From: Gammaproteobacteria bacterium
Lineage (GTDB): Bacteria; Pseudomonadota; Gammaproteobacteria; Steroidobacterales; Steroidobacteraceae
Direction of reading: 5' to 3'
DNA: 58,484 nucleotides
Assembly: GCA_028293725.1 (NCBI GenBank)
Contig: JAQGOE010000043.1
Coordinates: forward strand, 1 to 58,484
Shown here: one piece after another, positions 17,190-58,484 of the stretch
How positions within the stretch are numbered: position 1 is the first letter of the stretch
Layout: every line of letters starts with the position of its first letter
Notes under the pieces: generated by a model
Database searches by the model: none
What the model saw: only the letters and a program-made list of their open reading frames with translations
Told to the model about the DNA's origin: nothing
Made by a program: the position numbers and the translations under genes

Positions 17190-17909
17190 ATGGCAGCTGA
17201 ATTACACCCAGTAGACTTTATCGGGGCGGAACACGCAAAAAACCGCCTCGTACTCGTCGAGGATCACGCCATTCTGCGCGAAGGGTTGCGCGCCCTTCTC
17301 GAGCTCGAGCACGATCTGCAGATCGCGGGCGAATCCACCAATGGTCTCGATGCCGTGGAACTGGTGCGGCAGCTCACGCCCGCCCTGGTGATTACCGACA
17401 TCGCCCTGCCTGGAAGGTCGGGAATCGAGCTCATCGGCTGTCTGCGCCAGGTGCAGCCCGGAGTCAAAATTCTCGTCCTGACCGCGCACAATTCCGAGGA
17501 GTACATCCGTGCAGCCCTGAATGCCGGCGCGGACGGTTATGTTCTGAAGGATGCCAGCCGCGTGGAGTTGCTCCAGGCTATTCGCGCCATACTGTCGGGG
17601 CAGACTTTCTTGTGTGCGTCGGTGACCGCCAGAGTCGTCTCGGGCTATTTGCGCCCGAAATCGGCAGATCCGACCCGGTTGTCCGCCGAGCACGTGACCG
17701 GTCGCGAACGCGAAGTTCTGACGCAGGTAGCGCTCGGCAGCTCCAATAAACTCATTGCCAGGGCACTCGGTGTGAGCGTCAAGACGGTGGAAAAGCACCG
17801 GGCGAACCTCATGCGCAAGCTAACCCTACATAACACCGCGGCCGTGACCCGCTTCGCCATCCGCCACGGGATGGTACCCGCGACCGACGCGCAGACACCG
17901 GTAGAGTAA
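17190..17909 (+). CDS. NarL/FixJ-type response regulator (first of a close pair)
   Basis: This 239-residue protein has a receiver domain (about 19-135) with the acidic pair E24/D25, the phospho-acceptor D70 (VITDIALPGRSG) and Lys in YVLKDAS. The LuxR helix-turn-helix follows, with TGREREVLTQVALG and VSVKTVEKHRANLMRKL. It is strikingly similar to the regulator at 52635 through the whole length, with identical residue spacing. It lies directly upstream of the secretion operon, facing it, with a GGGTAG-N5-CTACCC palindrome 13 bp after its stop. It is inferred to control that operon and perhaps the copper-protein genes. The ATG start follows a GGGGGGCGAGG stretch. Confidence 0.92.
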   Translation: MAAELHPVDFIGAEHAKNRLVLVEDHAILREGLRALLELEHDLQIAGESTNGLDAVELVRQLTPALVITDIALPGRSGIELIGCLRQVQPGVKILVLTAHNSEEYIRAALNAGADGYVLKDASRVELLQAIRAILSGQTFLCASVTARVVSGYLRPKSADPTRLSAEHVTGREREVLTQVALGSSNKLIARALGVSVKTVEKHRANLMRKLTLHNTAAVTRFAIRHGMVPATDAQTPVE

Positions 17910-17921
17910 TCCTCAGTAGGT

Positions 17922-17938: not shown

Positions 17939-18063
17939 GCGGCTACGGCCGTCTACTTAGTTGAGTCCACCCCCGGGTAGCAACCCTCCCACTGGCGGCT
18001 GACGGCACCTCGACCGGAACATGGGTCGACGTGACAAGTCCACCACTACCGGATGGGATCAAC

Positions 18064-18504
18064 ATGCGGGGGCGCATTCAGAAGGCGGCAAAGACCGCCC
18101 GGAACCGCGGGTTCACACTCCTCGAACTGCTCGTGGTCATGGTGATCATCGGACTGCTCGCGGGATTCGTGGCGCCGCGGTACTTCTCCCAGGTCGGTAA
18201 GTCGCGGGTCAAGGCGGCCCGGGCGCAGATCGACGCACTCGACAAGGCGATCGAGCAATTCCGCATCGATGTCGGCCGCCTGCCGACGACCGAGGAAGGA
18301 CTAGCGGTACTCAACGTCGCACCCGCGGGTCTCGCCAACTGGGACGGACCCTATCTCAAGAAAGAGGTGCCGGCGGATCCGTGGGGACATCCCTACGTGT
18401 ATGCGCAGCCCGGAACCCATCAGAACGATTTCGATCTCGTGTCCTACGGCAGGGATGGCCAATCGGGCGGCAGCGGCGAAGACGCCGATCTGACGAACTG
18501 GTGA
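18064..18504 (+). CDS. gspG: Major pseudopilin GspG
   Basis: This 146-residue type II secretion pseudopilin carries the prepilin leader and cleavage site NRG|FTLLELLVVMVIIGLLAG with Glu at +5. The GspG core follows: ALDKAIEQFRIDVGRLPTTEEGL, then DGPYLKKEVPADPWGHPYVY, SYGRDGQSGGSGEDADLTNW. The last segment is the calcium-binding loop typical of GspG. The ATG at 18064 is preferred to the GTG at 18031 because it gives a normal leader. Pseudopilins assemble into the piston-like endopilus after processing by a prepilin peptidase, which is not encoded in the window. It is the first gene of the secretion operon. Confidence 0.94.
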   Translation: MRGRIQKAAKTARNRGFTLLELLVVMVIIGLLAGFVAPRYFSQVGKSRVKAARAQIDALDKAIEQFRIDVGRLPTTEEGLAVLNVAPAGLANWDGPYLKKEVPADPWGHPYVYAQPGTHQNDFDLVSYGRDGQSGGSGEDADLTNW

Positions 18505-18510: not shown

Positions 18511-19695
18511 ATGGAATTCCGCATCAAGGCGCTCGACCACACTCGCGGCATCGTCGCCTGTGTGGTCGATGCAGTGGACGAGGCGGATGCGCGGCGTCAG
18601 CTCGCGCTGAAAGAGTTCAGGGTTATCTCCCTCTCGCCGGTACGACACTTGCGGTTTCTGGCGCGAGCCCCCCAACTCCAACTGGCGGTCTTCAGCCAGC
18701 AGCTGGTGTCGCTGCTGGATGCCGGACTGTCACTGGTCGAGGCGCTGGAAGCGCTCGCCGAGCGGGAGTCGGCCACCGGAGCTCATCGAACGCTGGAAAG
18801 AGTTCTTGGACGCCTCTACGAAGGCCAGACGCTCGCCACGTCACTCGCCGAGCATCCGCGGACATTTCCGCCTCTGTACATCGCCTCTGTTCGCGCCAGT
18901 GAGCGCAGCGGCGCCCTGCGCGAAGCATTGACCCGCTACATCGCCTATGAAGTACAGGCTGATGCACTGCGCAAGACGTTGGTGAATGCCTGCATCTACC
19001 CGGCCGTTCTGCTCGGAGCCGGAGTACTCGTGATGTTGTTCCTGATGGGATATGTCGTCCCTCGGTTCAGCGCCATCTATGCCGACGTCGGCAGCGACTT
19101 GCCCGCGGCGTCCCGGCTCTTGCTCGAATGGGGGCAGTTGATGGAGGCGCATGCCGGCCTGGTCGCGACCTTCGCGGTCTGTTTTCTGGGCGGCTCGGTT
19201 TATGGCCTGAGTCGGCCGGCGGCGCGTGCCGCGGTCGGTGCCTGGGTTGCCCGCATTCCGGCCGTCGGCCGTCAACTGCACATTTACCAGCTGGCGCGTT
19301 TGTATCGTACGACCGGCATGTTGCTACGAGGGGGAATTCCGGCCGTCACCGCATTGCAGATGTCCGCGGGACTCGTTCGCGCCGGGTCGCAGGCCGCCTA
19401 TGCCGCGGCAACACGGTCGGTCTGCGAAGGGCAGTCGCTCGCGCAAGCCATGGAGCAAAACGGACTCACGACGCCGGTTGCCGCGCGGATGCTGCGTGTC
19501 GGGGAGCGGAGCGGCAACATGGGAGAGATGATGGAGCGGATCGCGTCGTTTTGCGATGAAGAGCTGGCGCGTTGGGTTGCGATCATGACCAAGCTGATCG
19601 AGCCGGTGCTCATGACCGTCATCGGACTCGTCATTGGCCTGATCGTGGTTCTGATGTATTTCCCCATCTTTCAACTCGCGGGGAGCATCCGTTGA
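18511..19695 (+). CDS. gspF: Inner-membrane platform protein GspF
   Basis: This 394-residue polytopic protein has two T2SSF domains. The first holds FSQQLVSLLDAGLSLVEALE and the second YQLARLYRTTGMLLRGGIPAVTAL and MLRVGERSGNMGEMMERIA. Three membrane segments lie near residues 160-185, 210-235 and 365-390. The N-terminal FRIKALDHTRG region is normal for GspF/PilC. It anchors the endopilus at the inner membrane and contacts the GspE ATPase. Its stop overlaps the TTG start of gspE in a TTGA arrangement. Confidence 0.93.
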   Translation: MEFRIKALDHTRGIVACVVDAVDEADARRQLALKEFRVISLSPVRHLRFLARAPQLQLAVFSQQLVSLLDAGLSLVEALEALAERESATGAHRTLERVLGRLYEGQTLATSLAEHPRTFPPLYIASVRASERSGALREALTRYIAYEVQADALRKTLVNACIYPAVLLGAGVLVMLFLMGYVVPRFSAIYADVGSDLPAASRLLLEWGQLMEAHAGLVATFAVCFLGGSVYGLSRPAARAAVGAWVARIPAVGRQLHIYQLARLYRTTGMLLRGGIPAVTALQMSAGLVRAGSQAAYAAATRSVCEGQSLAQAMEQNGLTTPVAARMLRVGERSGNMGEMMERIASFCDEELARWVAIMTKLIEPVLMTVIGLVIGLIVVLMYFPIFQLAGSIR

Positions 19696-21452
19696 ACGCC
19701 GCGGTCGATGAGCTCAAGCAGGTCGCGGCACCCGGCGAGGTCGATGCGCCGGCCCGGGAAACGACGCCCGCACTGACCCCCGTATCGGCGGCGATTCTCG
19801 ATGAAGCGCTCATCGCACGAGCGATGTCAGAAGCGGACGCGTCGGGCAAGTCCGCCCGCGAAATCCTGGCGCGTGCCACCGGGTTATCCGGATCGGGCTA
19901 CGCGAAGGCGCTGGCGGCGGCATTCGATTATCGATTCGTGGCCTCCAACGAGCTCGTGCACCTGGAGCCCGACTTCGCCCTCCTTGCTCCGGCCGAGGCG
20001 ACCCGCAGACACTGCCTGGTCGTGCACGAGGGAGATCGGCTGCTGGCGATCTTCGCGGATCCTTTCGACGCGACTCTGCGCGGCTGGTTGGAGATCCGCG
20101 TGTCGAGACCGATCGAGTGGGCGCTCGCTGCCCGCGAAGAGATCGCCAACCTGATCGCGCGCCGTTCCGAAGCACTGCGGGCCATCGATGCCGTGTTACC
20201 TGCGACACAGCGCGGTGCGCAGCACGAGCAGGGGATCGACACACTCTCGTATGTCTCTATCAGCGAGGACGCTAGCCCGGTCGTTCGACTCGTGCACTCG
20301 ACGGTCTACGACGCCTTGAAGGCGGGCGCCAGCGACATTCACCTGGAATCGACGGCTTCCGGACTCGTAGTTCGCTATCGTGTCGACGGAGTACTCGCGA
20401 GCATCGCGTCTATTCCCGGTGTGGAGCTGGCAGAGCAGGTCATCTCGCGTATCAAGGTCATGTCGGAACTCGACATCGCCGAACGGCGCGTGCCGCAGGA
20501 CGGCCGGTTCAAGATCTCGTATGACGGTCGCCCAATCGATTTCCGCGTCTCCATCATTCCAAGCGTCTTTGGTGAGGATGGCGTACTTCGGGTGCTCGAC
20601 AAGAAGGCGCTGACGCAGCAAATGAACGGGCTGCGACTCGACGTGTTGGGATTCGCGCCGGACGTCGTTGCCGAGCTGCGCCGCTTGAGCGCGCTCCCCT
20701 ACGGCATGTTGCTCGTGACGGGGCCGACCGGCAGCGGTAAGACGACCACGCTCTACGCCGCGATTTCCGAGACGCAGACCGGAAGAGACAAGATCGTGAC
20801 CATCGAGGATCCGGTGGAATACCAACTGCCGGGCGTTCTCCAGATTCCGGTCAACGAAAAAAAGGGGCTGACCTTCGCCCGTGGTCTGCGCTCGATTCTC
20901 CGGCACGACCCGGACAAGATCATGGTCGGCGAGATCCGTGACCCGGAAACGGCACAGATTGCAATCCAGTCCGCTCTGACCGGGCACCTGGTATTCACCA
21001 CCGTGCACGCCAACAACGTGTTCGATGTCGTCAGCCGTTTCGTGCACATGGGCGTTGACACCTATAGCTTCGTTTCCGCGCTGTCAGGCGTGCTGGCCCA
21101 GCGACTCATACGCGTAATCTGCGCCCAGTGCTGCGAGGCCTACATGCCCGAGCGGGAGCTCATCGAAAAGTCAGGCGTGACGGTCGTCAACACTGCGTCG
21201 TACCGGTTCCGCCGGGGCCAGGGCTGCAAACATTGTCGCGGCACGGGGTACCGGGGGCGTAAGGCGGTTGGGGAGCTGCTCGTCCTCAACGACGAGATGC
21301 GCGAAGCGATCATCAATCGTGCACCGATGCGGCAGCTCAAGGAGCTGGCCCAACAGGCGGGGGTGCGCCTGCTGCGGCAATCGGCGCTCGATCTCGTCCG
21401 GCGCGGCAATACCACGCTCGAGGAGGTGAACCGTGTCACCATTATGGCGTGA
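19692..21452 (+). CDS. gspE: Secretion ATPase GspE
   Basis: This 586-residue GspE/PilB-type hexameric ATPase has an N-terminal T2SSE_N-like domain (about 35-165), then SDIHLES near 214, Walker A GPTGSGKT at 344-351, an Asp-box region TIEDPVEYQLPG, Walker B KIMVGE at 409-414 and the His-box TTVHANN. The zinc-binding four-cysteine module typical of GspE is present as CAQC at 477-480 and CKHC at 512-515. The TTG at 19692, overlapping the gspF stop, is the only start that avoids a long overlap and gives a normal N-terminus; it implies translational coupling. The gene's 3' end overlaps the next gene by 20 bp. Confidence 0.93.
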   Translation: MNAAVDELKQVAAPGEVDAPARETTPALTPVSAAILDEALIARAMSEADASGKSAREILARATGLSGSGYAKALAAAFDYRFVASNELVHLEPDFALLAPAEATRRHCLVVHEGDRLLAIFADPFDATLRGWLEIRVSRPIEWALAAREEIANLIARRSEALRAIDAVLPATQRGAQHEQGIDTLSYVSISEDASPVVRLVHSTVYDALKAGASDIHLESTASGLVVRYRVDGVLASIASIPGVELAEQVISRIKVMSELDIAERRVPQDGRFKISYDGRPIDFRVSIIPSVFGEDGVLRVLDKKALTQQMNGLRLDVLGFAPDVVAELRRLSALPYGMLLVTGPTGSGKTTTLYAAISETQTGRDKIVTIEDPVEYQLPGVLQIPVNEKKGLTFARGLRSILRHDPDKIMVGEIRDPETAQIAIQSALTGHLVFTTVHANNVFDVVSRFVHMGVDTYSFVSALSGVLAQRLIRVICAQCCEAYMPERELIEKSGVTVVNTASYRFRRGQGCKHCRGTGYRGRKAVGELLVLNDEMREAIINRAPMRQLKELAQQAGVRLLRQSALDLVRRGNTTLEEVNRVTIMA

Positions 21453-22248
21453 TGAGATCGGCGCGCACCTTTCACCGCGCCGATTGTGTCTGGTTCGCAT
21501 GAAACGTGGCGTGAAGCCCACGCTGGGCACGGAGTACGAGGAAGAATTCGAGCCGCAGCAGTTAACCGACTGGGCGGCGGCGCTGCAGGCGCTCGAGGGC
21601 GTGTTGACGCAGCCCGAGTGGCAGGGCGCGCCCTTACGGGTCGTTGTCGCGGATTCCTGGGTTCGCTACGCGATCGTGCCCTGGGTGGCGGAGTTGAATT
21701 CGAGCGACGAGAAAGTGGCGCACGCCCGCCAACTGCTCGTAAGCGCGTACGGCGACGCCGTCAACGATTGGGAGGTTCGCCTGTCAGAGGCACCTCCGGG
21801 ATTTCCGCGTGTGGCGTGCACGATTCCTGTGGCGCTGGTCGAGGGTGTACGCGCGGTCTGCGTGAAACAACAGGCCAAACTGCTCTCTCTACAACCCCAA
21901 CTCGTGGCCGCATACGACGGCTGGCGCCATCGGCTGCCATCTGCCGGAGCCTGGTTCGTTACGGTGGACGAGGGCACCCTGGCCGCGGCACGGATTGGGC
22001 CAAGCGGCTGGGATCGTGTTTACAGTGTGCGGATTGGCGCCGATTGGACCCGCGAGCTCAAGCGGCTGCAGACTTTCGGACGACTCGCCAGCGTCAGCCC
22101 GGACGAGGGACAGGTGTTCGTCGATGCGCCGCAGGCCTGGCGCGCAGTGGCCGGTGCCGCGGCCCAGGATCTTCAATGGTTGGAAGAGGAGGCCGGGGAG
22201 TTGACGACCCTGCAACGGCTGGGACGCGCGCGGAGGTTGGCGGCATGA
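21433..22248 (+). CDS. PilM/GspL-like assembly platform protein
   Basis: This 271-residue protein starts at a GTG inside the end of gspE. It lacks membrane segments and shows an actin-like PilM/GspL cytoplasmic layout: an N-terminal strand pair (RLCLVRMKRG), LRVVVADSWVRYAIVPW, a central VDEGTLAAARIG and a C-terminal helical region. Sequence identity to known members looks low, so the assignment rests on operon order (ATPase, then PilM-, PilN-, PilO-like). MshI or PilM proteins link the ATPase to the inner-membrane complex. It overlaps the next gene by 4 bp. Confidence 0.68.
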   Translation: MSPLWRDEIGAHLSPRRLCLVRMKRGVKPTLGTEYEEEFEPQQLTDWAAALQALEGVLTQPEWQGAPLRVVVADSWVRYAIVPWVAELNSSDEKVAHARQLLVSAYGDAVNDWEVRLSEAPPGFPRVACTIPVALVEGVRAVCVKQQAKLLSLQPQLVAAYDGWRHRLPSAGAWFVTVDEGTLAAARIGPSGWDRVYSVRIGADWTRELKRLQTFGRLASVSPDEGQVFVDAPQAWRAVAGAAAQDLQWLEEEAGELTTLQRLGRARRLAA

Positions 22249-22775
22249 AAGCGCCGGCAGTCAGACTCGACTTCGCCGCGCCCCGCGTACGGACCACGCT
22301 TCCGGGCGTGTTGCTGTTAGTCGTGGGCATCGGAGCCGTCACCGCGACTTATCTCGAGTATCGCGCTGTGGAGGCGCGTAAAGCCGGACTGGAGCTCAGA
22401 CTCGCGGCATCTGTTCGCCACTCAACGCCCGATCCGGCTTCCGGTGCGCGAGCGCTACGCTTGAACGAAGACGGCGGAAAGATCGTCGGCGAGCTGGGAA
22501 GGCCCTGGACCGCGGTGTTGTCGGATCTCGAGGTGGCGAGCCGGGATTCCGGCGGCGCGATTTCGGTGCTGTCCGTTGAGCCCGATCCCGACAAGCGCCG
22601 AGTCCGTATCGATGGTGAATCGAAAGATCTGGGCGCCGCACTGGTCTACCTGGCGAAGCTGCAGGCCAGCCGCACGTTGAGCTATCCCATGCTGGATAGC
22701 CACGAAGTCAAGGCCGATGACAAGGATCACCCGGTGCGGTTCGCCATGACGGCGCAGTGGCGGGAGCTGCCATGA
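22245..22775 (+). CDS. PilN-like inner-membrane assembly protein
   Basis: This 176-residue bitopic protein has a short cytoplasmic N-terminus (MKAPAVRLDFA), one membrane helix (about 20-38, LPGVLLLVVGIGAVTATYL), a coiled segment and a small periplasmic ferredoxin-like domain (AVLSDLEVASRDSGGAISVLSVE). This layout matches PilN or the C-terminal part of GspL. It partners with the PilM-like protein before it and the PilO-like one after it; start and stop codons overlap by 4 bp on both sides. Confidence 0.68.
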   Translation: MKAPAVRLDFAAPRVRTTLPGVLLLVVGIGAVTATYLEYRAVEARKAGLELRLAASVRHSTPDPASGARALRLNEDGGKIVGELGRPWTAVLSDLEVASRDSGGAISVLSVEPDPDKRRVRIDGESKDLGAALVYLAKLQASRTLSYPMLDSHEVKADDKDHPVRFAMTAQWRELP

Positions 22776-23485
22776 TTGAAGTAGCGGGAACTGTGGTGGA
22801 CGCGGAGGTCGAGACGGCTGCGCCGGTCACGTCATTGTCCACCGTGCGGGGGCTCCCGACACCGCCTTCTGTGGAGCCCGTCGTCAGTCCGACGCCAACA
22901 AAACAACCTCCGGCCGCCACCGCCCGCGTCGACTTCATTACGCGCCTTCGTGGAACGGTCGGCGGGATCGTTCCACACGCGCAATATCAACTCACCCGGC
23001 TCGGCGCTCTCGGAATGACAGGTCTTGCCGCCATGCTCGCCGCGGTCGTCATCGGGCTCGGCGCTCTCATCCCCGGACAAAACGCAATTCGCGCCCTCGA
23101 CGCGGATATCGCCCGGGCGAAGCAGCATCATCCGCCCTCTGAGGTAACACCCGAAGAGGGGATCGGACGACTCGTCGCCGCTCTTCCGACGCGCGGCCAG
23201 ATTCCTGCAGTGATCGGCCTGGTTCTGCAACAGGCTCAGCAGGCAGGCGTGCCGCTCGACGTCGGCCACTATGCTTTCGTCCCCGCCAAATCGGGAGGCG
23301 TGGGTCGCTACGAGCTCGAATTCCCCGTACACGCGAGCTATCCGCAGGTCCGTGATTTCATCAATCGGACACTGACGGCAATTCCCGCCGCGGGCCTCGA
23401 CAAGCTGCGCATCGAACGCAAGACGGTTGCGGATCAGGCCGTCAATGCGGACGTTCGCTTCGTCGTCTTCGTCCGGGGCGAGTGA
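22772..23485 (+). CDS. PilO/GspM-like inner-membrane assembly protein
   Basis: This 237-residue protein has a Pro/Thr-rich cytoplasmic N-terminus (about 1-50), one membrane helix near 85-105 (LAAMLAAVVIGLGALIPG), a coiled-coil stretch and a periplasmic domain with IPAVIGLVLQQAQQAGV and YPQVRDFINRTLTAIPAAGLDKLRIER. This is the PilO/GspM arrangement. The proline-rich N-terminal extension is longer than usual. Start and stop codons overlap by 4 bp on both sides. Confidence 0.68.
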   Translation: MIEVAGTVVDAEVETAAPVTSLSTVRGLPTPPSVEPVVSPTPTKQPPAATARVDFITRLRGTVGGIVPHAQYQLTRLGALGMTGLAAMLAAVVIGLGALIPGQNAIRALDADIARAKQHHPPSEVTPEEGIGRLVAALPTRGQIPAVIGLVLQQAQQAGVPLDVGHYAFVPAKSGGVGRYELEFPVHASYPQVRDFINRTLTAIPAAGLDKLRIERKTVADQAVNADVRFVVFVRGE

Positions 23486-24027
23486 CACTCATGAAGGCCA
23501 AAACGCGCACCAACGCTCTGATCGCCACGGCTCTCGCGATTGCAGCTTATGTCGTTTTCGGGCCTACGGATGCGCCGATCGCCGCTGTTGCCCGTAACAG
23601 CCCGTCCCTGCCAAGCAGTCGTGAGCCGCAGACCAAAGCGGCGCCCCGGCAGAGCACGATGCACTCGCTGTTACTGCTTGCTCATCGTGTCAGTAACACG
23701 GTCGAGGCCGACGCGTTGTTCGCGACACACTCATGGTACGCACCGCCGCCACCACCGCCGCCCCCGTCGACCACAGCAACGACAGAATCGCTTGCGCCGC
23801 CGGCTCCCACGGCGCCACCGCTGCCCTTTGCCTACATGGGTACGTTCACACCGGACGGCGGCACGCCCGTATTCTTTCTAACCGCGGGCGATCGTGTTTT
23901 CGATGTACGCATCGGCGAAGCACTGGACAATCTGTACAGCGTCGATGGGCTCAACGGCGGGCAGCTGCAGCTGACCTACAAGCCTCTCAATATAAAACAA
24001 CAATTAACGGTCGGAGGCGCTCCGTGA
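23482..24027 (+). CDS. PilP/GspC-like periplasmic linker protein
   Basis: This protein of about 181 residues has an N-terminal membrane anchor (NALIATALAIAAYVVFG), a low-complexity proline run (eight Pro near residue 90) and a small C-terminal beta domain (PFAYMGTFTPDGGTPVFFLTAGDRVFDVRIGEAL), like the homology region of GspC or MshK/PilP. Such proteins link the inner-membrane platform to the secretin N-domains. The GTG at 23482 overlaps the preceding TGA (GTGA); an ATG at 23491 is an alternative. It is immediately followed by the secretin gene with another GTGA overlap. Confidence 0.65.
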   Translation: MTLMKAKTRTNALIATALAIAAYVVFGPTDAPIAAVARNSPSLPSSREPQTKAAPRQSTMHSLLLLAHRVSNTVEADALFATHSWYAPPPPPPPPSTTATTESLAPPAPTAPPLPFAYMGTFTPDGGTPVFFLTAGDRVFDVRIGEALDNLYSVDGLNGGQLQLTYKPLNIKQQLTVGGAP

Positions 24028-26525
24028 CGACATTCTCGCGCCGCCTGGCAGGCGCAGTAGCGATCCTGGCTCTCATCGCCGGTTGTGCGGCCAACCGGCT
24101 GCACGAAGAGGGTCTCAAGGCAGTAGCAAGAGGGGATTACGAGGACGGCGTTGCCAAGCTCAGCGAAGCGGTCCGCAGCGACCCGCGGAACATGGGCTAC
24201 CGCCTGGATCTGGCGGCACGGCGCGACGAGGCAGTACAGCGGCTGATCGGTATCGCCGATGATGCAAGAGCCGCGGGACAATTCGATGCCGCGGCTTTGG
24301 CCTATCGGCGCGTGCTGGTGATCGACCCGGCCAACGACCGTGCGCACCGCGGACTCGCCATGCTCGATGGCGATGCGCGCCAGAGCGCCACGGTCGCCGC
24401 GGCCCGCCAGGACTTCGAGCGCAAGGATTACGACTCGGCGGAGGCGAAGCTGCGGGTCATCCTCGGGGCGGATCCGGGGTTCAAGCCCGCACAGGATCTG
24501 GCCGCCGCAATCACCGCGGCGCGTGGGCCGACGACGGTCGCGCCACGCCTGAAAACACGGGACAACCGCAAAGTGACGCTGCAGTTCCGCGATGCGCCCA
24601 CCAAGATGGTGTTCGAAGTGCTGTCCCGGGAGACCGGCATCAACTTCATCCTCGACAAGGACATCAAGAGCGACGGCAAGACCACCATATTCGTCCAGGA
24701 CGTGGCGGTCGAGGAGGCGATCGACCTGGTGCTCGATCAGAGTGCCCTGGCGCGCCAGGTCCTCTCCTCCAACATGGTGATGGTCTACCCGAACAACCCC
24801 AACAAGCAGAAGGAGTACGAGCAACAGATGGTCCGGACTTTCTACCTCACGAACGCGGAGCCGAAGGAAGTCGAGTCCATGCTGAAGGCGGTCCTGGGCG
24901 CAAAGACCCTGTTCATCGACGAGCGCTCCTCAGCAGTGATCCTGCGCGACACGCCGGATGCGGTGCGCATGGCCGAAAAGCTCGTGGCCTCCGTCGATGT
25001 TCCCGAGGCGGAGGTCATGCTGGAAGTGGAAGTCCTGGAGATTTCCTCGAGCAAGCTGCAGGATCTCGGCATCCTGTACCCGAGCACGGCAACGCTGACT
25101 CCCACGGCAGTCGGCACCGGCGTGGCGGCTTCCGGCCTCGTGCTGTCGGATCTGTCGCATCAGAATTCGCATACCATCACGGTCACACCGCTCAGCGTCA
25201 CGCTCAACGCCATGAAGCAGGCGGGCCTCACCAAAACACTGGCGAGCCCGCGCATCCGCGCCCACAACAAGGAGAAGGCCAAAATCCTGATCGGCAGCCG
25301 GCTGCCGGTGATTACCAACAGTGTGACACCGACGGCCGCCGGAACTCCGGTGGTCACCGGCAGTGTCCAGTACCTGGACGTGGGCCTGACGCTCGAGGTG
25401 CAATCGACGGTTCATCTGGACGGCGACGTCGGCATCAAGGTCAGCCTCGAGGTGAGCTCGCTCCTCAAGCAGATCACGACGGCCTCCGGCACGATTGCCT
25501 ACGAGATCGGGACGCGCAACGCCAATACGATGCTGCGGCTGAAGGACGGAGAGACCCAGATTCTGGCCGGACTCATCCAGGATTCCGACACGCGCACGGC
25601 CAACACTATTCCCGGGCTCGGCGATATTCCGTTGCTCGGACGTCTGTTCGGCACGCACCACACGGACCGCGAGAAGGACGAGATCGTCCTGTCCATCACG
25701 CCCCGGATTATCCGCATGCAGCCGCGTCCCGCCAGCGACATGACCGAATTCTGGTACGGCAGCGAATCGCGAACCCGCACTGGCCCGTACGCTGCTGATT
25801 CCGGCGCCGGCAGTGAGGGTCGCCGGGCGGCGCCGGTGCAAGCCCCGCCGCCCGTGCCGAATTACGGAAGTCCGCAGCCGGTGAATCCGTCAGTGCCTGC
25901 CGGGAATGTTTCGGCGCCGCTGAGCGGAACGTCGACTGCTGAACCCCCCGGTGACACGGCGAAGTCGATGGCCCTCCCGACATCGCCGTCTCCGCAGGGA
26001 CTGGCCGCAACGGCGCTTCCGGCACCCGTCGCCCCTGTATCTCCTCCACCGGACTCCGAAAGTAGCGATTCGAGCGGGTCGGGCGCGACGGACACGCCCA
26101 CACGTCCGGCATCACCAACGGGTGCGCGTTCGGCATTGAGCCTGGATGGACCGTCGGAGGCCAAAGTGGGTGACGAGTTTCAAGTTGTCGTGCAGCTCTC
26201 CAGCCAGGAAGGTATTACCCGTCTGCGCTCGCAGTTGCGCTTTGATGCCTCGGCGCTCCAGCTCACCAGCGCGACGGTCGGCGATCTGGTTCCTGCCGCT
26301 GCGGGTAGCCCTTCCGTCAACACCAAAGGGGGCGGTGCTCAGCTGGATCTCGTCACCAGCCCACAGGAACCGGTTCAGGGCACTGGCTCATTGATGATCC
26401 TGCACTTCAAGGCACTCGCGCCCCGGGCCACCAACATCGCGGCGATGTTGAACGTACTGGGCGGCACCGGTGCGGCGGTCGGCAGTAGCTCGGCGCAACC
26501 TCTGAAAGTTGCCATCCAACCGTGA
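24024..26525 (+). CDS. gspD: Secretin GspD/MshL-like lipoprotein with TPR and cohesin-like domains
   Basis: This 833-residue outer-membrane secretin has a signal peptide ending in a lipobox (LIAGC), suggesting lipidation. TPR-like helices follow (about 30-150, DYEDGVAKLSEAVRSDP, QFDAAALAYRRVLVIDP), then an N0/STN-like domain (VTLQFRDAPTKMVFEVL), an N1 domain and the secretin core with VEVLEISSSKLQDLGI, SPRIRAHNKEKAKILIG and TIPGLGDIPLLGRLFG. After a long Pro/Ser/Thr linker (about 580-700) the C-terminus is cohesin-like (LDGPSEAKVGDEFQVVVQLSS, LRFDASALQLTSATVGD). The TPR and cohesin parts are not in textbook GspD, but similar fusions occur in atypical secretion operons. Confidence 0.9.
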   Translation: MTTFSRRLAGAVAILALIAGCAANRLHEEGLKAVARGDYEDGVAKLSEAVRSDPRNMGYRLDLAARRDEAVQRLIGIADDARAAGQFDAAALAYRRVLVIDPANDRAHRGLAMLDGDARQSATVAAARQDFERKDYDSAEAKLRVILGADPGFKPAQDLAAAITAARGPTTVAPRLKTRDNRKVTLQFRDAPTKMVFEVLSRETGINFILDKDIKSDGKTTIFVQDVAVEEAIDLVLDQSALARQVLSSNMVMVYPNNPNKQKEYEQQMVRTFYLTNAEPKEVESMLKAVLGAKTLFIDERSSAVILRDTPDAVRMAEKLVASVDVPEAEVMLEVEVLEISSSKLQDLGILYPSTATLTPTAVGTGVAASGLVLSDLSHQNSHTITVTPLSVTLNAMKQAGLTKTLASPRIRAHNKEKAKILIGSRLPVITNSVTPTAAGTPVVTGSVQYLDVGLTLEVQSTVHLDGDVGIKVSLEVSSLLKQITTASGTIAYEIGTRNANTMLRLKDGETQILAGLIQDSDTRTANTIPGLGDIPLLGRLFGTHHTDREKDEIVLSITPRIIRMQPRPASDMTEFWYGSESRTRTGPYAADSGAGSEGRRAAPVQAPPPVPNYGSPQPVNPSVPAGNVSAPLSGTSTAEPPGDTAKSMALPTSPSPQGLAATALPAPVAPVSPPPDSESSDSSGSGATDTPTRPASPTGARSALSLDGPSEAKVGDEFQVVVQLSSQEGITRLRSQLRFDASALQLTSATVGDLVPAAAGSPSVNTKGGGAQLDLVTSPQEPVQGTGSLMILHFKALAPRATNIAAMLNVLGGTGAAVGSSSAQPLKVAIQP

Positions 26526-27001
26526 TGTCAAAGCGCATGCGCGGCTTTACGCTCATCGAGCTCGTGATCACGCTGGCGATTGTCGGACTGCTGGCCAGCG
26601 CGGCGATGCCGCTCGCACAGCTGGTGGCTAAGCGTGAGAAGGAGGCGGAGCTTCGCGCGGCGCTGCGAGATATACGCACCGCTCTGGATGCGTACCGCAA
26701 GGAGGCACAAACCGGGCACATCAAGCAGGAGCTCGGGGCGTCAGGCTACCCTCCGGATCTCAGGGCGCTGTACGCCGGGGTGGAGGACGCCGCAAGGGAA
26801 GACAAGGTGAACCTTTACTTCCTGCGCCGCATTCCGCGCGATCCTTTCTTTCCGGACGCAGCCGTTGTGGCGGAAGAGACCTGGGGACTGCGCAGCTACC
26901 AAAGTCCTCCCGATGACCCACAGCCGGGCGATGACGTCTTTGACGTGTATTCACTGTCGACGGATAAGGGCCTGAACGGGGTTCGCTATCGTGACTGGTG
27001 A
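26522..27001 (+). CDS. GspG-like pseudopilin (second)
   Basis: This 159-residue pseudopilin has a very short leader cleaved at MRG|FTLIELVITLAIVGLLASA, with Glu at +5. The globular part (LRDIRTALDAYRKEAQTG, NLYFLRRIPRDPFFPD, GLRSYQSPPDDPQPGDDVFDVYS) resembles GspG, and the protein ends in YRDW like the Trp-ending GspG. The GTG start overlaps the secretin stop; an ATG at 26525 is equally possible. It may be a second structural or cargo-specific pseudopilin. Confidence 0.88.
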   Translation: MMSKRMRGFTLIELVITLAIVGLLASAAMPLAQLVAKREKEAELRAALRDIRTALDAYRKEAQTGHIKQELGASGYPPDLRALYAGVEDAAREDKVNLYFLRRIPRDPFFPDAAVVAEETWGLRSYQSPPDDPQPGDDVFDVYSLSTDKGLNGVRYRDW

Positions 27002-27399
27002 CAGACATGACGCGTAACAACCGACGCAGGTCGAAGTGCGGCTTCACACTGATCGAGCTGCTGATCGTCATGGCAATCATCGGTACTCTGTTGAGCATCG
27101 CGGTGCCGAGATATTTTCGCACGCTCGAGCGTGCCCGCGAGACGGTTCTAAAGCAGGATCTGTCGATTCTGCGCGAGGCGATCGACAAGCACTACGCCGA
27201 TCTCAACGAATATCCGGACACGTTATTGGTTTTGGTCGAGAAGCGTTACGTCCGGTCCGTGCCGCTCGATCCTTTCACCAAGCTAGCGGACACGTGGACT
27301 CTGATCCCCTCTGACGACCCCGATCACGCCGGCATCCGTGACATTCATAGCGGCGCTGCGGAGACCGCTGCCGACGGAACTCCGGTCGCGTCCTGGTGA
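26998..27399 (+). CDS. GspG-like pseudopilin (third)
   Basis: This 133-residue pseudopilin is processed after KCG|FTLIELLIVMAIIGTLLS with Glu at +5. The mature part has LSILREAIDKHYADLNEYPDTLL and SVPLDPFTKLADTWTLIP and ends in ASW. It is small and close to the GspG fold, but lacks the clear calcium loop of the first gspG. The GTG start overlaps the preceding stop (GTGA), continuing the coupled pattern of the operon. Confidence 0.88.
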   Translation: MTDMTRNNRRRSKCGFTLIELLIVMAIIGTLLSIAVPRYFRTLERARETVLKQDLSILREAIDKHYADLNEYPDTLLVLVEKRYVRSVPLDPFTKLADTWTLIPSDDPDHAGIRDIHSGAAETAADGTPVASW

Positions 27400-27403
27400 C
27401 GAG

Positions 27404-28018
27404 ATGGGCGGACGCTCAAGCGCGCAACGCGGATTCACCTATGTCGGTCTACTCGTGGCCGTCGTAATGATGGGACTCGTGCTTACGGCGGTGAGTCGTG
27501 TGTGGAGGACGACCGAGCAGCGCGAACGGGAAACACAGCTGCTGTTCGTGGGTCACGCCTTCCGCATGGCAATCGCCTCCTATTATGCGAGCGGCCATCG
27601 ATTTCCCAACGCCCTGGAAGAGCTGCTTCAGGATGAGCGTTTTCCCATTCCAAAACGCCACTTGCGACGTCTTTATCCCGATCCCATCACGGGCCGGGCG
27701 GACTGGACCCTGGTCCTCACTCCCGACGGTAACGGCATTATGGGCATAGGCAGCAGCTCCACACGCGCACCGTTCAAGCGAGCTGGCTTCGATACCGTCG
27801 ATGACGCCTTCAAGGATGCGGACTGCTACTGCTCGTGGCAGTTCGTCTACTATCCGAGCCGCTACAACCGAGCCACCGGCCCCAACGGTACGGGTACTCT
27901 GGCGCCGGGGAACACCAACACCCTCGCACCCCGCACTCTCGGCACTTTCACGCCGGGCAGCCTGACGACCCTCCCGTCCGGTGGCGCCACATCTTCTAAC
28001 GGCGCCTCTACTAACTAA
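27404..28018 (+). CDS. Minor pseudopilin lacking Glu at +5
   Basis: This 204-residue protein has a prepilin-type N-terminus QRG|FTYVGLLVAVVMMGLVLTA in which position +5 is Gly, not Glu. Pseudopilins without Glu5, such as GspK, sit at the tip of the endopilus, so a tip role is inferred. A globular domain follows (FRMAIASYYASGHRFPNALEELL, RADWTLVLTPDGNGIMG, WQFVYYPSRY). The C-terminal 45 residues are a Gly/Thr/Pro/Asn-rich tail with repeated TLAP/TLGTFTPG phrases. It is the last secretion gene before the copper-protein block. Confidence 0.82.
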   Translation: MGGRSSAQRGFTYVGLLVAVVMMGLVLTAVSRVWRTTEQRERETQLLFVGHAFRMAIASYYASGHRFPNALEELLQDERFPIPKRHLRRLYPDPITGRADWTLVLTPDGNGIMGIGSSSTRAPFKRAGFDTVDDAFKDADCYCSWQFVYYPSRYNRATGPNGTGTLAPGNTNTLAPRTLGTFTPGSLTTLPSGGATSSNGASTN

Positions 28019-28167
28019 CCCCACTATCCGGCATACGGATTTGTGCCATCGGCGACTCCGGCTTCACATCTATGGTTTCGCGGGGCCGGCTCGCGCACAT
28101 TAACCCCACCAAGAACCAATCTAATCATCAGGGTCTATCGTGCCGGCAGTTCTCGGGTGGAGGCGTT

Positions 28168-45176: not shown

Positions 45177-45193
45177 CTGCCGGCGAGGGCTCG

Positions 45194-53993: not shown

Positions 53994-56453
53994 CTAGAAA
54001 CTGAAGCGATAGGCGAGGCTCGCATAGTAGCGCTTCGTATTCTGGCTCTGTAGCAGTGCGTCGCGCTTGCCGAGCTGGCCACCGACCTCGAACTGCAGCA
54101 GCCTGCGATCTTTCTGATAGTCGATCAGCACCGAAGGGATGTACGTGAGTTCCGTACTGTCGTCGATAGTGAGGTTGCGTCGGTCGATGGTCAGGCGCGG
54201 CCCGATACGCCAGGCGCCGTTCACCGGGAAGCGGCTGCTCGCGCTCACCCCCATGAGCTTGCCGATCTCGGTGTTGGAATAGGTTGCCGTCAGGACGCTG
54301 AAATCGCCTGTCCGCCACAGGCTCGAGGTGTAGATCTGTGCCTGGTAGGTGAGCTCGAGGCCGGTGGCGGGCTGTGCGTCGACGCCTCCGGATTCGGGAG
54401 TCGCGCCGGTTTGCGTGGCGGACACTGTGGTGGAGAACTGGAATCGCTGGCCCAGCGGACGGGTCGCCGTAATACTGTAGTCCGTCGTGTAGGGAGTGCG
54501 GTCACGCGCGAGTTGGTATATCTGCTGTACCGTGAAAACCTGCTCCAGCTGCGCGAGGGTGTTGTCCGGCTGCCCGATGAGCGAGTTGCGTGTCGTGAGG
54601 ACGGGCGAGTTGCGCCGCTCCGCGTCGAAGCTCAGGCTCCAGTGCGCGGGGAGTTGCACAGTGCCGAGCAACGATCCCGTGTTGAGCGAACGGTAGAAGG
54701 TGTCGTAGTCGACGATAGCGATGAGCGATGCCCATGACGCCAGGTAACGGCTCTCGATCCCGACGGCCTGGCGATCGCGGATGCCGTCGAATTGTTGTAG
54801 CGCGACGAACACGCTGGCGTCCCAATGCGCCCGGGGCGGAGTGAACGCCAGCGCTACCGATTCGAATCGCCGTGCGGTCCGCACCCCGGAGTTGGTTTCC
54901 TCCACGGGATAGCCGGCTGCGACGTTGATTCCCCAGGAAGGCCGCCATTGATAGGACACGAACATCCCGTCGAACGTACCGAGAACGCCGTCCTGGTTGC
55001 GTGTCTGGCGCCCGAGCCGCGCCAGCAGGCCGAGCGAGCGGTCGACCATCTCGATCGAGGCGATGCTGATGCGCCGGTCGTCGCCGAGGCCGTTCTGCAC
55101 GAAGCTCTTTTCGTACCCGGCGCTCAGGCGCGCCATCCAATCGACATTCTCGCCCCGGCGCCGGGCGAGCAGATCCACATCGGTGAAGAGTGAGTTGTCG
55201 GTCGTCGTCTGGATCGAATTGGGGGGCAGGATCGTGCCCGGTGGCACATTGCCGGCGGGCGTGTTGTTGTCGACCCTCGTGCCGTCATAGCGGAAGAGTT
55301 GCGCGACGCCGCCCGTCAGGTGCCAGCCCTTGTCACTGGCACTTCCCGGCGCGCCACCGCGCGAGGCGGCGGTCGCGGTGCGCAGAGTGCGCAGGCGCAG
55401 CGCAACCCGCTCGGCCGCCTCGCCACTCGGATACCGGCGCAGATACTCCTCGTACTCCGCTTTGGCGTGCGCAAGCTGGCCCGAGCGCTCGCGCGCCAGG
55501 CCAATGAGCTCCTGCACGCGGGCGCGATCTGGAAATTCCGGCTGGCGTTGCAACTTTGTCAGCAGGGTGATCGCCTTCGGATAGTCGCGCGCCGCCATGG
55601 ACGCCCTGACCTGCGCCAGCATCGATTTGAGCGTTCCGGGATCCAACGGTGGATCGCTGCCGATGCGCTCGACGGCTGGCAGGGGAGCTTCGCTCGCCGT
55701 TGCGTTGGGGTCTGTGGTGACGGCATCGTCGCCGACGGCGACCCAGGCGCGCGGATAGTCGGGTAAAGCACGATTCAGCAGCCGCTCGGCGTCGGCGCGC
55801 CGATCGATCGGGCCGATCCGCAGCCGGTACCATTTCTCGCCGTCGATGATGGCCTCGGAGACGAACGCCGGAGCCTGCAACCGCTCGTGTGCGGTCTGCA
55901 CGGCCTGGGGGTCGAAAGGCTTGGGCTGCGAGTCGAGATTGATCGCAAAGTTACTCACCGTATCGGTGGGTTGAGACAACAGGATCTTGCCGTGCCCAAT
56001 CGCGCGATCGATCAACCGCATACGCAGGCCGCGCGGATCGACGCCCTGGGCTATTACGAAGCGCTCGCTCTTCTTGAAGTCGAACACGAGTGTGATTTGC
56101 CCCGGTACGTCGCCGTCCACGCGCACGGCCCTGACGATTCCCGCACCCCCCGAGACTGGCGGAAGCTCGCTGGCAATCTGGCTCCCCGGGAATACACCGC
56201 AGTCCCCGAGAGGCTGCAATTGCACCCGTACCTCCGCTCCTTCGCTGGCGGGAAGATGGGTTATATACCGGACCGAGCAGTTGAATTGAACCGTCAGATC
56301 GACCTGGTCTTCGTGATCCGTGACCTCCACGATATCGACGAAGCGTCCGGCGCTCGGCGCCGCCCCGATCTGCCCGACCGCGACACTCGTCAACAGGACA
56401 CCGAGTGAAGCCATCGCTCGTAGTGCGGCGCCCCTAATGCTTGAACGTCGCAT
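53994..56453 (-). CDS. Outer-membrane beta-barrel with SPOR-like and TPR regions
   Basis: This 819-residue exported protein has a signal peptide (about 1-31), a first beta domain (FVDIVEVTDHEDQVDLTVQF), a SPOR-like segment (WYRLRIGPIDRRADAERLLNRAL) and TPR-like helices (DYPKAITLLTKLQRQPEFPD, LAHAKAEYEEYLRRYPSGEAAERV). From about residue 385 it is a long series of amphipathic strands ending YYASLAYRFSF, the terminal Phe signature of outer-membrane barrels. It overlaps the multihaem cytochrome gene by 20 bp. A barrel paired with a multihaem cytochrome recalls porin-cytochrome conduits such as MtrAB, but this barrel is not recognisably MtrB and the SPOR/TPR arm is different. Confidence 0.8.
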   Translation of the reverse strand: MRRSSIRGAALRAMASLGVLLTSVAVGQIGAAPSAGRFVDIVEVTDHEDQVDLTVQFNCSVRYITHLPASEGAEVRVQLQPLGDCGVFPGSQIASELPPVSGGAGIVRAVRVDGDVPGQITLVFDFKKSERFVIAQGVDPRGLRMRLIDRAIGHGKILLSQPTDTVSNFAINLDSQPKPFDPQAVQTAHERLQAPAFVSEAIIDGEKWYRLRIGPIDRRADAERLLNRALPDYPRAWVAVGDDAVTTDPNATASEAPLPAVERIGSDPPLDPGTLKSMLAQVRASMAARDYPKAITLLTKLQRQPEFPDRARVQELIGLARERSGQLAHAKAEYEEYLRRYPSGEAAERVALRLRTLRTATAASRGGAPGSASDKGWHLTGGVAQLFRYDGTRVDNNTPAGNVPPGTILPPNSIQTTTDNSLFTDVDLLARRRGENVDWMARLSAGYEKSFVQNGLGDDRRISIASIEMVDRSLGLLARLGRQTRNQDGVLGTFDGMFVSYQWRPSWGINVAAGYPVEETNSGVRTARRFESVALAFTPPRAHWDASVFVALQQFDGIRDRQAVGIESRYLASWASLIAIVDYDTFYRSLNTGSLLGTVQLPAHWSLSFDAERRNSPVLTTRNSLIGQPDNTLAQLEQVFTVQQIYQLARDRTPYTTDYSITATRPLGQRFQFSTTVSATQTGATPESGGVDAQPATGLELTYQAQIYTSSLWRTGDFSVLTATYSNTEIGKLMGVSASSRFPVNGAWRIGPRLTIDRRNLTIDDSTELTYIPSVLIDYQKDRRLLQFEVGGQLGKRDALLQSQNTKRYYASLAYRFSF

Positions 56454-58484
56454 CAGTTACCCGATGATGCGGGCCCGGTATGCGTCGCGCGATCGTGTCC
56501 AACTTCGTGTCGTTATACAGATGACAGGCGCCAGTACAGTTGTGCAGCTCGCTCGCCGTGTAATTGACGCCCTTGACGATCTTGGGATGCGCCTCCGGCT
56601 TGAAGTCCTTCGCATGGCACCCGGCGCAGGTGCCCGCATTCGCCGCGGACTGATAGGGTATTCCGTCCGTATCGGTCGTATGACACGCGGCGCAGCCCAA
56701 CGGGGCGCGATGGATGCCCGGATAGGCCACCGAGATGTGCGTGAAGCGGATGGCGCTCCAATCCGGATACGTATGACAGGTGGCGCAGTCCCGTTTCGTA
56801 ACCATGTGGCCGGATGGAACCCCAACGGCACTCGAGTTGTTGTGGCAGCCAGCGCAGCCCGCCGTCAGGGTTGAATGATCGAGTTTCACCGGCGCCCAGG
56901 CGGTGGTGTTGTGGCAGCTGCCACACGGCATGGTGGTTCGAATGTGATTCCGTGGCATGCCGATCGCCCGCACTGCATTGTGGCAGGTGACGCACGACTG
57001 GGCCGCCATGATCCGCAGGGTCGCGTGATCGAAACGTGCCGGCATCCAGGCATTTGTGGTGTGGCAGCTGTCGCATCCGGCTTTCGTCGCGATATGCGCG
57101 GACGCCTTGCCCTTGGCGATAGTTCCGTTGTGGCAGGTCGCGCAGGCCCCGATGACCTGTGTGTGATCTACCTTGCTCACGGGCAGCCATGCTACGGCGG
57201 TGTGGCAGGACGCGCACGAATTGCTGGTCGCAATGTGTGTAGCTGGCTTCGTGCCGGCGACGGTTGCGGCTGTCGTCGTCGACGTGGTTTTCGCTACCGC
57301 TGGCGGCCGGACCGCGTGCTTGTCTCTGGAGGTGTGACACCCGGAGCCGCCGCAATCCTGCCCCGCGTGGTGGTTGGCGCTCGGCCGTACCCAGAGTTGT
57401 ACCCCGGTGTTTGTTCTCCAGGTCATGCCGCGCTCGTGGCAGCTATCGCAGGCGTTGGCGCGTACCGGCGCGTGTTTCATCACCGTTCCGGCGAACGTCG
57501 TGAAGTTGGTCACCGAATGGCATTGCTCGCAGGCGATACTGCCCACGGGGATGTGACCGGTCGGACCCGTGGGCGGCTCGACCAGGGTGGGTGGGGCCAT
57601 GTTCGCGAACGATAGTCCGTTGGCATGACACAGTGCGCACCCGCTGGTAATGCCGGTGTGTCCTGTCGCGCCCATTACGTAGGCACCGTAGTTGCCGGCC
57701 GTCGTGTGACACTGGGTGCAGGGCGCGTTAGTCGGAATGTGATTGGCAGGCTTGCTGCCGCTGGTGACGTTCGCTGCGAACGTCGGCGTTGATGTGTGGC
57801 AGCCGCCGCAATCGCCGGTAGTGGGGTGACTCTTGTCGAACGCAGTCGGTCTCGAGTCGGCTGCGGAGGTTGCCGTACTTGCGATCATCCCTTGATAAGG
57901 GGCGGTCTGGTGACAGGTCTGGCACGCCGGAACCGCGGCAACTATCGTGGTGTGCCCGGCAGTGGTCAGCGTCGGGCTGTTGATGTTGGCCGCGCCGATG
58001 TGGAAACCGCCCGAGCTGACATTACTGGTGGTGTGGCAGCCGGAACCGTTGCAGTCGAGGGCGCCGATCGGAATGTGGCCGCTCGAGAGCGTGGTGATCG
58101 TAATGTTGGCAAAAGTCGTCGCCACCGACGGGCCGTGGCAGCTGAGGCAATTCGTGACGCCCTGGTGTGTACCGGTGACTGAATAGAGAGCGTAGTTGCC
58201 GGCCGTCGTGTGGCACTGCGCGCACGCCGCGGTGGTCGGAATGTGATTCGCCGGTTTCGCCGAGCTCGTGACATCGGAGGAGAACGTCGGCGTCGTCGTA
58301 TGGCAGCCGCCGCAATCGCCGCTCGTCGGGTGATTCTTATCGAACGCCGTCGGTCGTGAATCTCCAGCAGCGGCGGCCGAGCTAGCGAGCATCCCCTGGT
58401 AGGGTGCCGACTCGTGGCAGGTCTGGCACGCCGCCACAGCGGCAGCCACCGTCGTATGTCCCGCAACGGTCAGCGTCGGGCTGT
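56434..58484 (-). CDS. Multihaem c-type cytochrome (N-terminus beyond window)
   Basis: The minus-strand frame is open to the right edge, so the N-terminus is missing; 683 residues are visible. I count 19 CxxCH motifs plus two Cx4CH (CNGSGCH, CGGSGCH) and one Cx3CH (CTGACH), so at least 22 potential haems. The N-terminal part consists of units of about 168 residues carrying five haem motifs each. The C-terminal part has shorter units (CxxCH, about 20-30 residues, then a lone His as in KVDHTQVIGACATCH) like cytochrome c3/c7-type arrays with bis-His ligation. It is likely periplasmic or at the outer membrane, in an operon with a beta-barrel and a lipoprotein. Confidence 0.9.
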   Translation of the reverse strand, partial: SPTLTVAGHTTVAAAVAACQTCHESAPYQGMLASSAAAAGDSRPTAFDKNHPTSGDCGGCHTTTPTFSSDVTSSAKPANHIPTTAACAQCHTTAGNYALYSVTGTHQGVTNCLSCHGPSVATTFANITITTLSSGHIPIGALDCNGSGCHTTSNVSSGGFHIGAANINSPTLTTAGHTTIVAAVPACQTCHQTAPYQGMIASTATSAADSRPTAFDKSHPTTGDCGGCHTSTPTFAANVTSGSKPANHIPTNAPCTQCHTTAGNYGAYVMGATGHTGITSGCALCHANGLSFANMAPPTLVEPPTGPTGHIPVGSIACEQCHSVTNFTTFAGTVMKHAPVRANACDSCHERGMTWRTNTGVQLWVRPSANHHAGQDCGGSGCHTSRDKHAVRPPAVAKTTSTTTAATVAGTKPATHIATSNSCASCHTAVAWLPVSKVDHTQVIGACATCHNGTIAKGKASAHIATKAGCDSCHTTNAWMPARFDHATLRIMAAQSCVTCHNAVRAIGMPRNHIRTTMPCGSCHNTTAWAPVKLDHSTLTAGCAGCHNNSSAVGVPSGHMVTKRDCATCHTYPDWSAIRFTHISVAYPGIHRAPLGCAACHTTDTDGIPYQSAANAGTCAGCHAKDFKPEAHPKIVKGVNYTASELHNCTGACHLYNDTKLDTIARRIPGPHHRVTDATFKH
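57670..58484 (-). repeat. Tandem 504-bp repeat inside the multihaem cytochrome gene
   Basis: Identical landmarks recur 504 bp apart: GTTGCCGGCCGTCGTGTG at 57691 and 58195, and GGTCTGGCACGCCG at 57917 and 58421. The period equals 168 codons and preserves the frame. Protein phrases are kept (DSRPTAFDK, CGGCHT, NHIPT, CQTCH, APYQGM). At least two copies are visible, the outer one running off the window edge; the 3' copy degrades after its third haem motif. Confidence 0.85.

Follow-up and report, generated by a model that had tools for sequence, protein, structure and literature searches.

A Conserved Gene Cluster Encoding a Predicted Extracellular Copper Oxidase with Ligands Divided over Two Proteins and a Type II Secretion-Like Exporter

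The 58,484-nucleotide stretch analyzed here (the window; contig JAQGOE010000043.1 of assembly GCA_028293725.1, positions 1 to 58,484 of the forward strand, from a gammaproteobacterium of the Steroidobacteraceae) carries an operon resembling a type II secretion system (T2SS) that runs into genes for two proteins of the multicopper oxidase (MCO) type, MCO1 and MCO2, a third, giant protein, a LolA-like protein, two fusions of a heme c domain with a binding-protein-like domain (cyt1 and cyt2), and an SCO copper chaperone. All of these were found where the original prediction had placed them, and the giant is indeed exactly 3200 amino acids (aa) long. Sequence comparison gives good support to a copper redox system that is predicted to be exported and is encoded beside a T2SS-like exporter of its own. 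As the best explanation of these genes, we propose with moderate confidence that their product is a copper oxidase sent out of the cell, with an active site that would be shared between MCO1 and MCO2.

The copper ligands expected of such an oxidase are distributed over the two proteins. In MCO1, the type 1 ligands H321, C367, H374, and M379 are accompanied by H324, H326, H366, and H368 (residues counted from the start at position 28168; an earlier possible start lies at 28072), and these eight residues, which align with the type 1 and first-domain trinuclear ligands of the oxidase structure 3g5w, were all present in 76 of the 77 sequences without gaps (three more sequences were cut). No equivalent ligands were found in the second half of MCO1, where position 551 is a histidine in 27 of 81 sequences. 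In the alignment of MCO2 sequences the first half is ligand free, and the second half keeps H314, H317, H319, H510, and H512 in all 83 sequences (one further sequence was gapped), with a serine at residue 511 in the place of the type 1 cysteine. The sets behind these counts are unique by sequence, yet they include stretches of the same genome taken twice. A scan of bacterial genomes with MCO2 gave 139 relatives, of which the best 80 loci (L001 to L080) were retained; both ligand halves were complete in 62 of the 66 loci scored for both, three of the others being cut by contig ends and the fourth being L057. MCO1 and MCO2 are themselves related (E 1e-10), as are residues 1 to 430 of the giant and MCO2 (hhalign E 9e-25), and this N-terminal part of the giant holds none of the copper motifs of MCO1 or MCO2. 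Each MCO might instead act by itself or in a homomer, with MCO1 serving as a type 1 copper electron carrier or a nitrite reductase-like protein and MCO2 as a structural or copper storage partner. Copper nitrite reductases do match both proteins, alongside oxidases, MCO1 alone has a full type 1 site, and the second half of MCO2 matches known oxidases weakly; however, only one ungapped case departs from the complementary ligand halves, and in 78 of 80 loci the two genes are neighbors (the remaining two loci are cut); we regard separate action as quite unlikely.

Known two-domain oxidases offer a model for a shared site. In 3g5w, which we take to be a type C two-domain oxidase, and in 2zwn, the type 1 site lies in domain 1 and an HDH motif without a cysteine in domain 2; the alignment is good between MCO1 and the first half of these proteins and weak between MCO2 and the second. 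Two-domain oxidases form trimers in which domain 1 of each protomer and domain 2 of its neighbor enclose a trinuclear site, and in type C the type 1 copper is in the N-terminal domain (PMC13151041). An N-terminal type 1 site with histidine motifs in both domains is found here only in MCO1 and MCO2 together, the alignment of the MCO2 second half being weak, and no single chain holds both halves. The known trimers are built from one chain (PMC13151041), whereas here the live halves lie on different, otherwise ligand-free chains and the third chain is fused to a giant. On this model, MCO1, MCO2, and the N-terminus of the giant would be related two-domain chains of a heteromer with a single live junction, that between the copper domain of MCO1 and the second domain of MCO2; MCO1 would supply the type 1 copper site and four histidines, MCO2 would supply the other four, and the trinuclear site formed where they meet would reduce O2. 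Such a ring would fit three related chains that are encoded together, one with a live first half, one with a live second half, and one with neither. We put forward more tentatively the fuller version, a hetero-trimeric MCO in which three paralogous two-domain chains would have decayed complementarily to leave one live site per ring between two proteins, the third chain being the root of the giant adhesin and the ring being preassembled with copper and exported by the co-encoded T2SS-like machine.

Two divergent relatives show other arrangements of the giant. In G016 (C228) the giant body is fused to MCO1 and both ligand halves are readable; in G020 (C153) it is separate from the cupredoxin part and the MCO2 half alone is readable. 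Fused and separate arrangements would be expected if MCO1, MCO2, and the giant form one complex. An 811-aa open reading frame (ORF) of C153 was considered as an MCO1-MCO2 fusion and rejected, its first half not being MCO1-like and the MCO1 pieces falling in a different open frame; MCO1 is also covered by long open frames in L006, L038, and L072, which may be an artifact of the same kind.

The genes for MCO1, MCO2, and the giant (the trio) keep their order and strand. MCO1 is present in 78 of the 80 loci and the giant in 79, and all three absences (L061, L078, and L045) are at contig ends. By record title, the holders include Acidobacteria (Granulicella and Occallatibacter), Paraburkholderia, Cupriavidus, Pandoraea, Trinickia, Collimonas, and Sideroxydans. 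MCO2 was detected in 3 of 300 Burkholderiales genomes (the center genome G007 included) and in 8 of 297 Acidobacteriota genomes (including the center genome G002 and also G020, a genome already found earlier, with G339 and G343 distant or partial). The cluster is thus conserved yet rare, and since identity across phyla is high and presence is patchy, the sequences suggest transfer between phyla. In a protein collection searched at E 1e-3, relatives of the giant made up 2376 of 7991 scored candidates and those of MCO2 7308 of 8000; the nearest named relatives of the window proteins are from Steroidobacteraceae (P0006, 72% over the giant; P0135, 83% over MCO2). A separate observation concerns G017 (Acidobacteria bacterium AB60), in which four contigs each carry an MCO2 locus (L030, L056, L058, and L079) and MCO1 has five strong matches; this multiplicity suggests variants for different substrates or surfaces.

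The exporter is linked to the trio as well. Among 34 trio genomes, a survey with the window secretin (cut-off, E 1e-30) gave close homologs in 21 (39 to 70% identity), distant ones only in 9 (28 to 34%), and none in 4 (G023, G025, G026, and G028, all metagenome records). In 17 of the 21, the close secretin lies within about 30 kb on the contig of MCO1, MCO2, or the heme fusion: upstream of the trio in 11 (G007, G008, G010, G012 to G016, G019, G027, and G210), beyond the heme fusion in 5 (G004, G005, G006, G009, and G018), and in G021 with the heme fusion alone sharing its contig. The remaining four genomes (G003, G011, G022, and G194) carry the secretin on a different contig. Cupriavidus, Pandoraea, and Trinickia have the whole order of exporter, MCO1, MCO2, giant, small protein, LolA-like protein, heme fusion, and SCO, and the exporter is on the contig of the cluster in three more genomes, of the Sideroxydans genus. 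Because the same order recurs in distant genomes, the arrangement is not due to chance; outside Acidobacteria the exporter appears to belong to the cluster, and the joint conservation of copper proteins, heme fusions, and T2SS genes that the original prediction had made its test holds there.

The twenty plus-strand genes at positions 18031 to 47655 are spaced closely enough for one to three operons (Table 1). The exporter genes (18031 to 28018) overlap or are at most 6 bases apart, and MCO1 through cyt2 overlap or are at most 26 bases apart; wider spacers lie between the third minor pseudopilin-like gene and MCO1 (149 bases, or 53 with the earlier MCO1 start) and between cyt2 and SCO (89 bases). 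Pfam cut-offs were passed by GspG, GspF, GspE, the secretin, and two of the three minor pilin-like proteins, and the T2SS core (GspG major pseudopilin, GspE ATPase, GspF, and secretin) is present by these matches. The third minor pilin-like protein had no Pfam match, and the four assembly proteins had neither Pfam nor NCBIfam matches. The full classical set (GspC, GspH to GspK, GspL, GspM, and prepilin peptidase) was not found, with no peptidase match among the scanned operon genes. Because GspE, GspF, and the secretin, unlike GspG, score below the curated NCBIfam cut-offs, the exporter is classed by sequence as T2SS-like and not of the classical kind. T2SS export of MCOs in Mn-oxidizing Pseudomonas and the OxpG/OmpB system of Geobacter, which reportedly sends out extracellular copper proteins by a T2SS-like route, are parallels by description; in the window, by contrast, the exporter genes adjoin the cargo.

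Table 1. Features of the copper protein cluster and its surroundings in the window
Feature	Coordinates	Strand	Basis and remarks
NarL/LuxR-type response regulator, upstream of exporter operon	17190..17909	+	Pfam Response_reg and GerE; related regulators near operon in several other loci
GspG-type major pseudopilin	18031..18504	+	T2SSG, E 3.5e-40; TIGR01710 above cut-off
GspF-type inner-membrane protein	18511..19695	+	T2SSF; GspF model 266 bits, below cut-off of 424
GspE/PilB-type ATPase with MshEN domain	19695..21452	+	T2SSE, E 1.3e-124; 499 bits, below GspE cut-off of 630
Four assembly proteins	21433..22248, 22239..22775, 22757..23485, 23482..24027	+	PilM/N/O/P-like by position only; homologs in same place elsewhere
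Secretin, N-terminal TPR, C-terminal cohesin domain	24018..26525	+	Secretin, E 2.7e-39; TPR, STN, Cohesin
Three minor pseudopilin-like genes	26522..27001, 26998..27399, 27338..28018	+	N_methyl on first two; third by place and homologs
MCO1	28072..30090	+	Cu-oxidase_3; conserved ligands; aligns with 3g5w domain 1, E 1.3e-15
MCO2, two-domain oxidase chain	30101..31735	+	Cu-oxidase_3; ligands in 83/83; matches 3g5w and 2zwn, domain 1 strongly, domain 2 weakly
Giant, 3200 aa	31753..41355	+	N-terminal cupredoxin-like pair without copper motifs; N-terminus related to MCO2
Spy-like small periplasmic protein	41382..41987	+	Weak NCBIfam Spy match, E 5.8e-5, below cut-off
Small exported protein, no known family	41984..42562	+	No Pfam match; conserved in cluster
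LolA-like protein	42559..43518	+	LolA_like, E 7e-4, below Pfam cut-off
cyt1, one heme c and type I binding-protein-like domain	43524..45176	+	Cytochrom_C; one CxxCH; MofC-like by description
cyt2, tandem paralog of cyt1	45191..46846	+	About 50% identical to cyt1; one CxxCH
SCO1/SenC copper chaperone	46936..47655	+	E 5.9e-22
Barrel-like outer membrane protein with SPOR and TPR	53994..56453	-	SPOR and TPR by Pfam; barrel by reading; optional, lineage-limited neighbor
Multiheme cytochrome, 19 CxxCH in visible part	56434..58449	-	Cytochrome_C7 and MtrC/MtrF domain matches; optional neighbor

Several observations weigh against an exported oxidase with a shared site. L057 has the sole ungapped MCO1 that misses a ligand, with a serine for H326. 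The HPFHEH stretch of MCO2 aligns weakly with the second-domain histidines (9.0 bits with 3g5w and 5.0 bits with 2zwn), its HSH stretch scores -2.2 bits against the HDH of 2zwn, the only structure with which it was aligned, and H314 is conserved without any type 1 cysteine partner; because these scores are weak or negative, the assignment of the MCO2 second half leans more on conservation and order than on score. The N-terminus of the giant, perhaps related to MCO1, matches it at an hhalign E of 6e-5 with a probability of 65% only. The monomer models of MCO1 and MCO2 are poor (mean predicted local distance difference test scores, 58.5 and 55.3), and worst in the copper regions; they were left out of the copper site analysis, and a fold search used the MCO2 model alone, poor as it is, and matched two-domain oxidases and nitrite reductases. 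The nine genomes with distant secretins only are Acidobacteria by record title or search group, and because a close homolog of the window secretin is missing there, export in Acidobacteria must differ; a weakly similar secretin gene lies within 10 kb of the trio in 9 of the 80 loci, all Acidobacteria labeled, and the three of these that were scanned (L018, L022, and L055) have TPR-secretins. Finally, a complete oxygen-reducing site makes the passage of electrons into the cell harder to explain.

The original prediction had called the system possibly undescribed, which did not hold: judged by gene content and order, the cluster is already known and matches Slit_1812-1818 of Sideroxydans lithotrophicus ES-1. 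A report of 2017 described for that organism three extracellular copper proteins encoded in tandem, together with a mofC-like cytochrome and a copper chaperone (PMC5566968), and in 2025 the Slit_1812-1818 proteins, predicted to be extracellular, were found at higher levels on magnetite than on Fe(II)-citrate; two have MCO motifs and the third, large one has adhesin- and lyase-like parts, and similar clusters were named in Paraburkholderia, Ralstonia, Anaeromyxobacter, and Steroidobacteraceae (PMC12016527). A role in oxidation of solid Fe(II) was raised for the ES-1 cluster by Keffer et al. In G624, a genome of the Sideroxydans genus that is probably ES-1, we found MCO1, MCO2, the giant, two small proteins, SCO, and a heme c protein in this order (identities to the window proteins, 61% for MCO1, 52% for MCO2, and 36% for the giant), preceded by a T2SS-like operon with three regulator-like genes between; the two genes after the cluster, for glycogen-branching and phosphoglucose isomerase functions, were set aside. 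The two clusters thus share three tandem cupredoxin genes, the third of them large, together with SCO and heme c genes; the window differs in having two heme fusions, a Spy-like gene, SCO in last position, and a multiheme-barrel operon nearby, and identity is moderate. The main text of PMC12016527 contains neither "type II secretion" nor "secret" as a term, and neither the split ligand arrangement nor the T2SS link is described in titles or abstracts among the open-license PMC matches listed, supplements (e.g., Fig. S4 of PMC12016527) lying outside that scope. As far as the literature searched goes, the linkage of the exporter to the cluster and the view of the copper proteins as three related two-domain chains are new.

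The heme fusions recall a second known group. MofC-like proteins combine a cytochrome c with a periplasmic binding domain, and the MofABC and OmpB systems of Leptothrix and Geobacter have an extracellular MCO, a MofC-like heme c/binding-domain protein, and, in some, SCO (PMC5566968), a set that the window cluster resembles in description. The window fusions fit the MofC-like layout at the level of described domains. MofA holds four MCO motifs in one chain (PMC8218464), whereas in the window they are divided over MCO1 and MCO2. No Pfam match to a mofB-type peptidyl-prolyl isomerase was found among the scanned cluster genes, and the Geobacter ompB cluster likewise has no mofB (PMC5566968). Two further papers treat mofA-type genes and have nothing on this cluster in the passages cited (PMC10734462 and PMC13386937). 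As a side observation, L103 (352 to 7884) encodes a single-chain MCO of 2510 aa in which all four motifs are present, next to a relative of the heme/binding-protein fusion; this may be a MofA-like cluster, and its genome has the split cluster as well.

The cysteines and the histidine of the heme motif are invariant in the 13 aligned rows. For the predicted binding-protein halves, PF13458 was matched on 9 of 120 listed homologs and the window copies had no Pfam match; below E 0.01 a PDB search with the fusions returned only cytochromes. A cyt1 relative (E ≤ 1e-3) was present in 22 of 28 trio genomes surveyed, and in 18 of these 22 a heme fusion and an MCO1 match lie on one contig (divergent copies are counted for G016 and G020 and, for G027, a fragment of MCO1 that lies at the edge of a contig); the background was 8 of 300 Burkholderiales genomes, G007 included, at a stricter E of ≤1e-30. 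This linkage, the rise of the Slit_1812-1818 proteins on magnetite with their predicted extracellular location (PMC12016527), and the multiheme-barrel operon that adjoins the cluster in the window and two other loci are what would be expected of extracellular electron uptake from solid Fe(II), with electrons passing from the copper proteins through the heme c fusions into the cell. However, a conserved, complete oxygen-reducing ligand set would spend the electrons outside, and 6 of the 28 trio genomes, including Granulicella and Occallatibacter, have no heme fusion at E ≤ 1e-3. Many cluster holders are not known as iron oxidizers, and electron uptake appears unlikely.

The multiheme-barrel operon is oriented toward the cluster with sensor genes between it and the SCO1 end, as the original prediction had it; its inclusion as a part of the system stood less well. 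In G027 and in the second copy of G015 the barrel gene is likewise a convergent neighbor with multiheme genes behind it, yet a barrel relative (E ≤ 1e-10) was found in only 12 of the 34 trio genomes, and the other 22 had no match to the window barrel at this cut-off, other porins not being sought. A porin and multiheme cytochrome as an integral part, as in conduits of the Mtr/Mto/PCC type, were thus not found, and the operon looks like a lineage habit and not a core part. Only 35 bases separate the start of the multiheme ORF from the end of the window, and the ORF may be cut. In G027 the multiheme cytochromes behind the barrel gene (L123, 1828 to 6279 and 6060 to 8405) have 39 and 21 CxxCH motifs in mechanical ORFs. 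Two similar NarL/LuxR-type regulators (the one listed in Table 1 and another at 52566 to 53381) frame the cluster, and related ones stand beside it in other genomes; positions 866 to 6477 hold, by reading only, sugar-acid catabolism-like genes (dehydratase, FAH-like, SDR, amidohydrolase, and RhaT-like).

Some accessory genes bear on another possible function, that of a surface oxidase for detoxification of copper or another metal. SCO is part of the cluster, and CusB- and CusA-like efflux genes directly follow the LolA-like gene in a Granulicella genome (L099, 7989 to 12712). CopA/CueO-type copper systems, however, are periplasmic and need neither a giant adhesin nor a T2SS, and CusBA genes were identified in that one locus only, other loci not being scanned for them; we hold this function to be very unlikely. 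For the LolA-like carrier of the original prediction the match is weak; its gene occurs in two copies in several other loci. A counterpart of the small exported protein was present within 10-kb flanks in 29 of 80 loci.

In the exported oxidase with a shared MCO1-MCO2 site that we favor, the chains would pass Sec, receive copper in the periplasm with the help of SCO, and be exported in folded form by the T2SS-like machinery encoded next to them. The body of the giant contains immunoglobulin (Ig)-like and SdrD-like stretches, a NosD/beta-helix-like part, choice-of-anchor Q, and DUF11 (the SdrD, Big_9, and NosD matches are below cut-off), and this beta-helix, Ig-like, adhesin-like remainder may serve as a surface tether or mineral binder. 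From the complete ligand set, reduction of O2 outside the cell is predicted. The substrate would be an extracellular reductant, most likely mineral Fe(II), or else another metal or a humic reductant; by analogy, Fe(II) mineral is the best lead, the sole one found with protein data, which come from another organism.

If correct, this explanation would account for the association of three copper proteins in a cluster to which iron-oxidizer research has drawn attention without giving a mechanism, and the cluster would be predicted to reduce O2 outside the cell. The cluster is tied to a co-encoded exporter, and its range by record titles, Acidobacteria, Burkholderiaceae, and Gammaproteobacteria, extends well past the known iron oxidizers. 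Should the hetero-trimer also be true, it would be a secreted, mineral-anchored oxidase that has spread between phyla.

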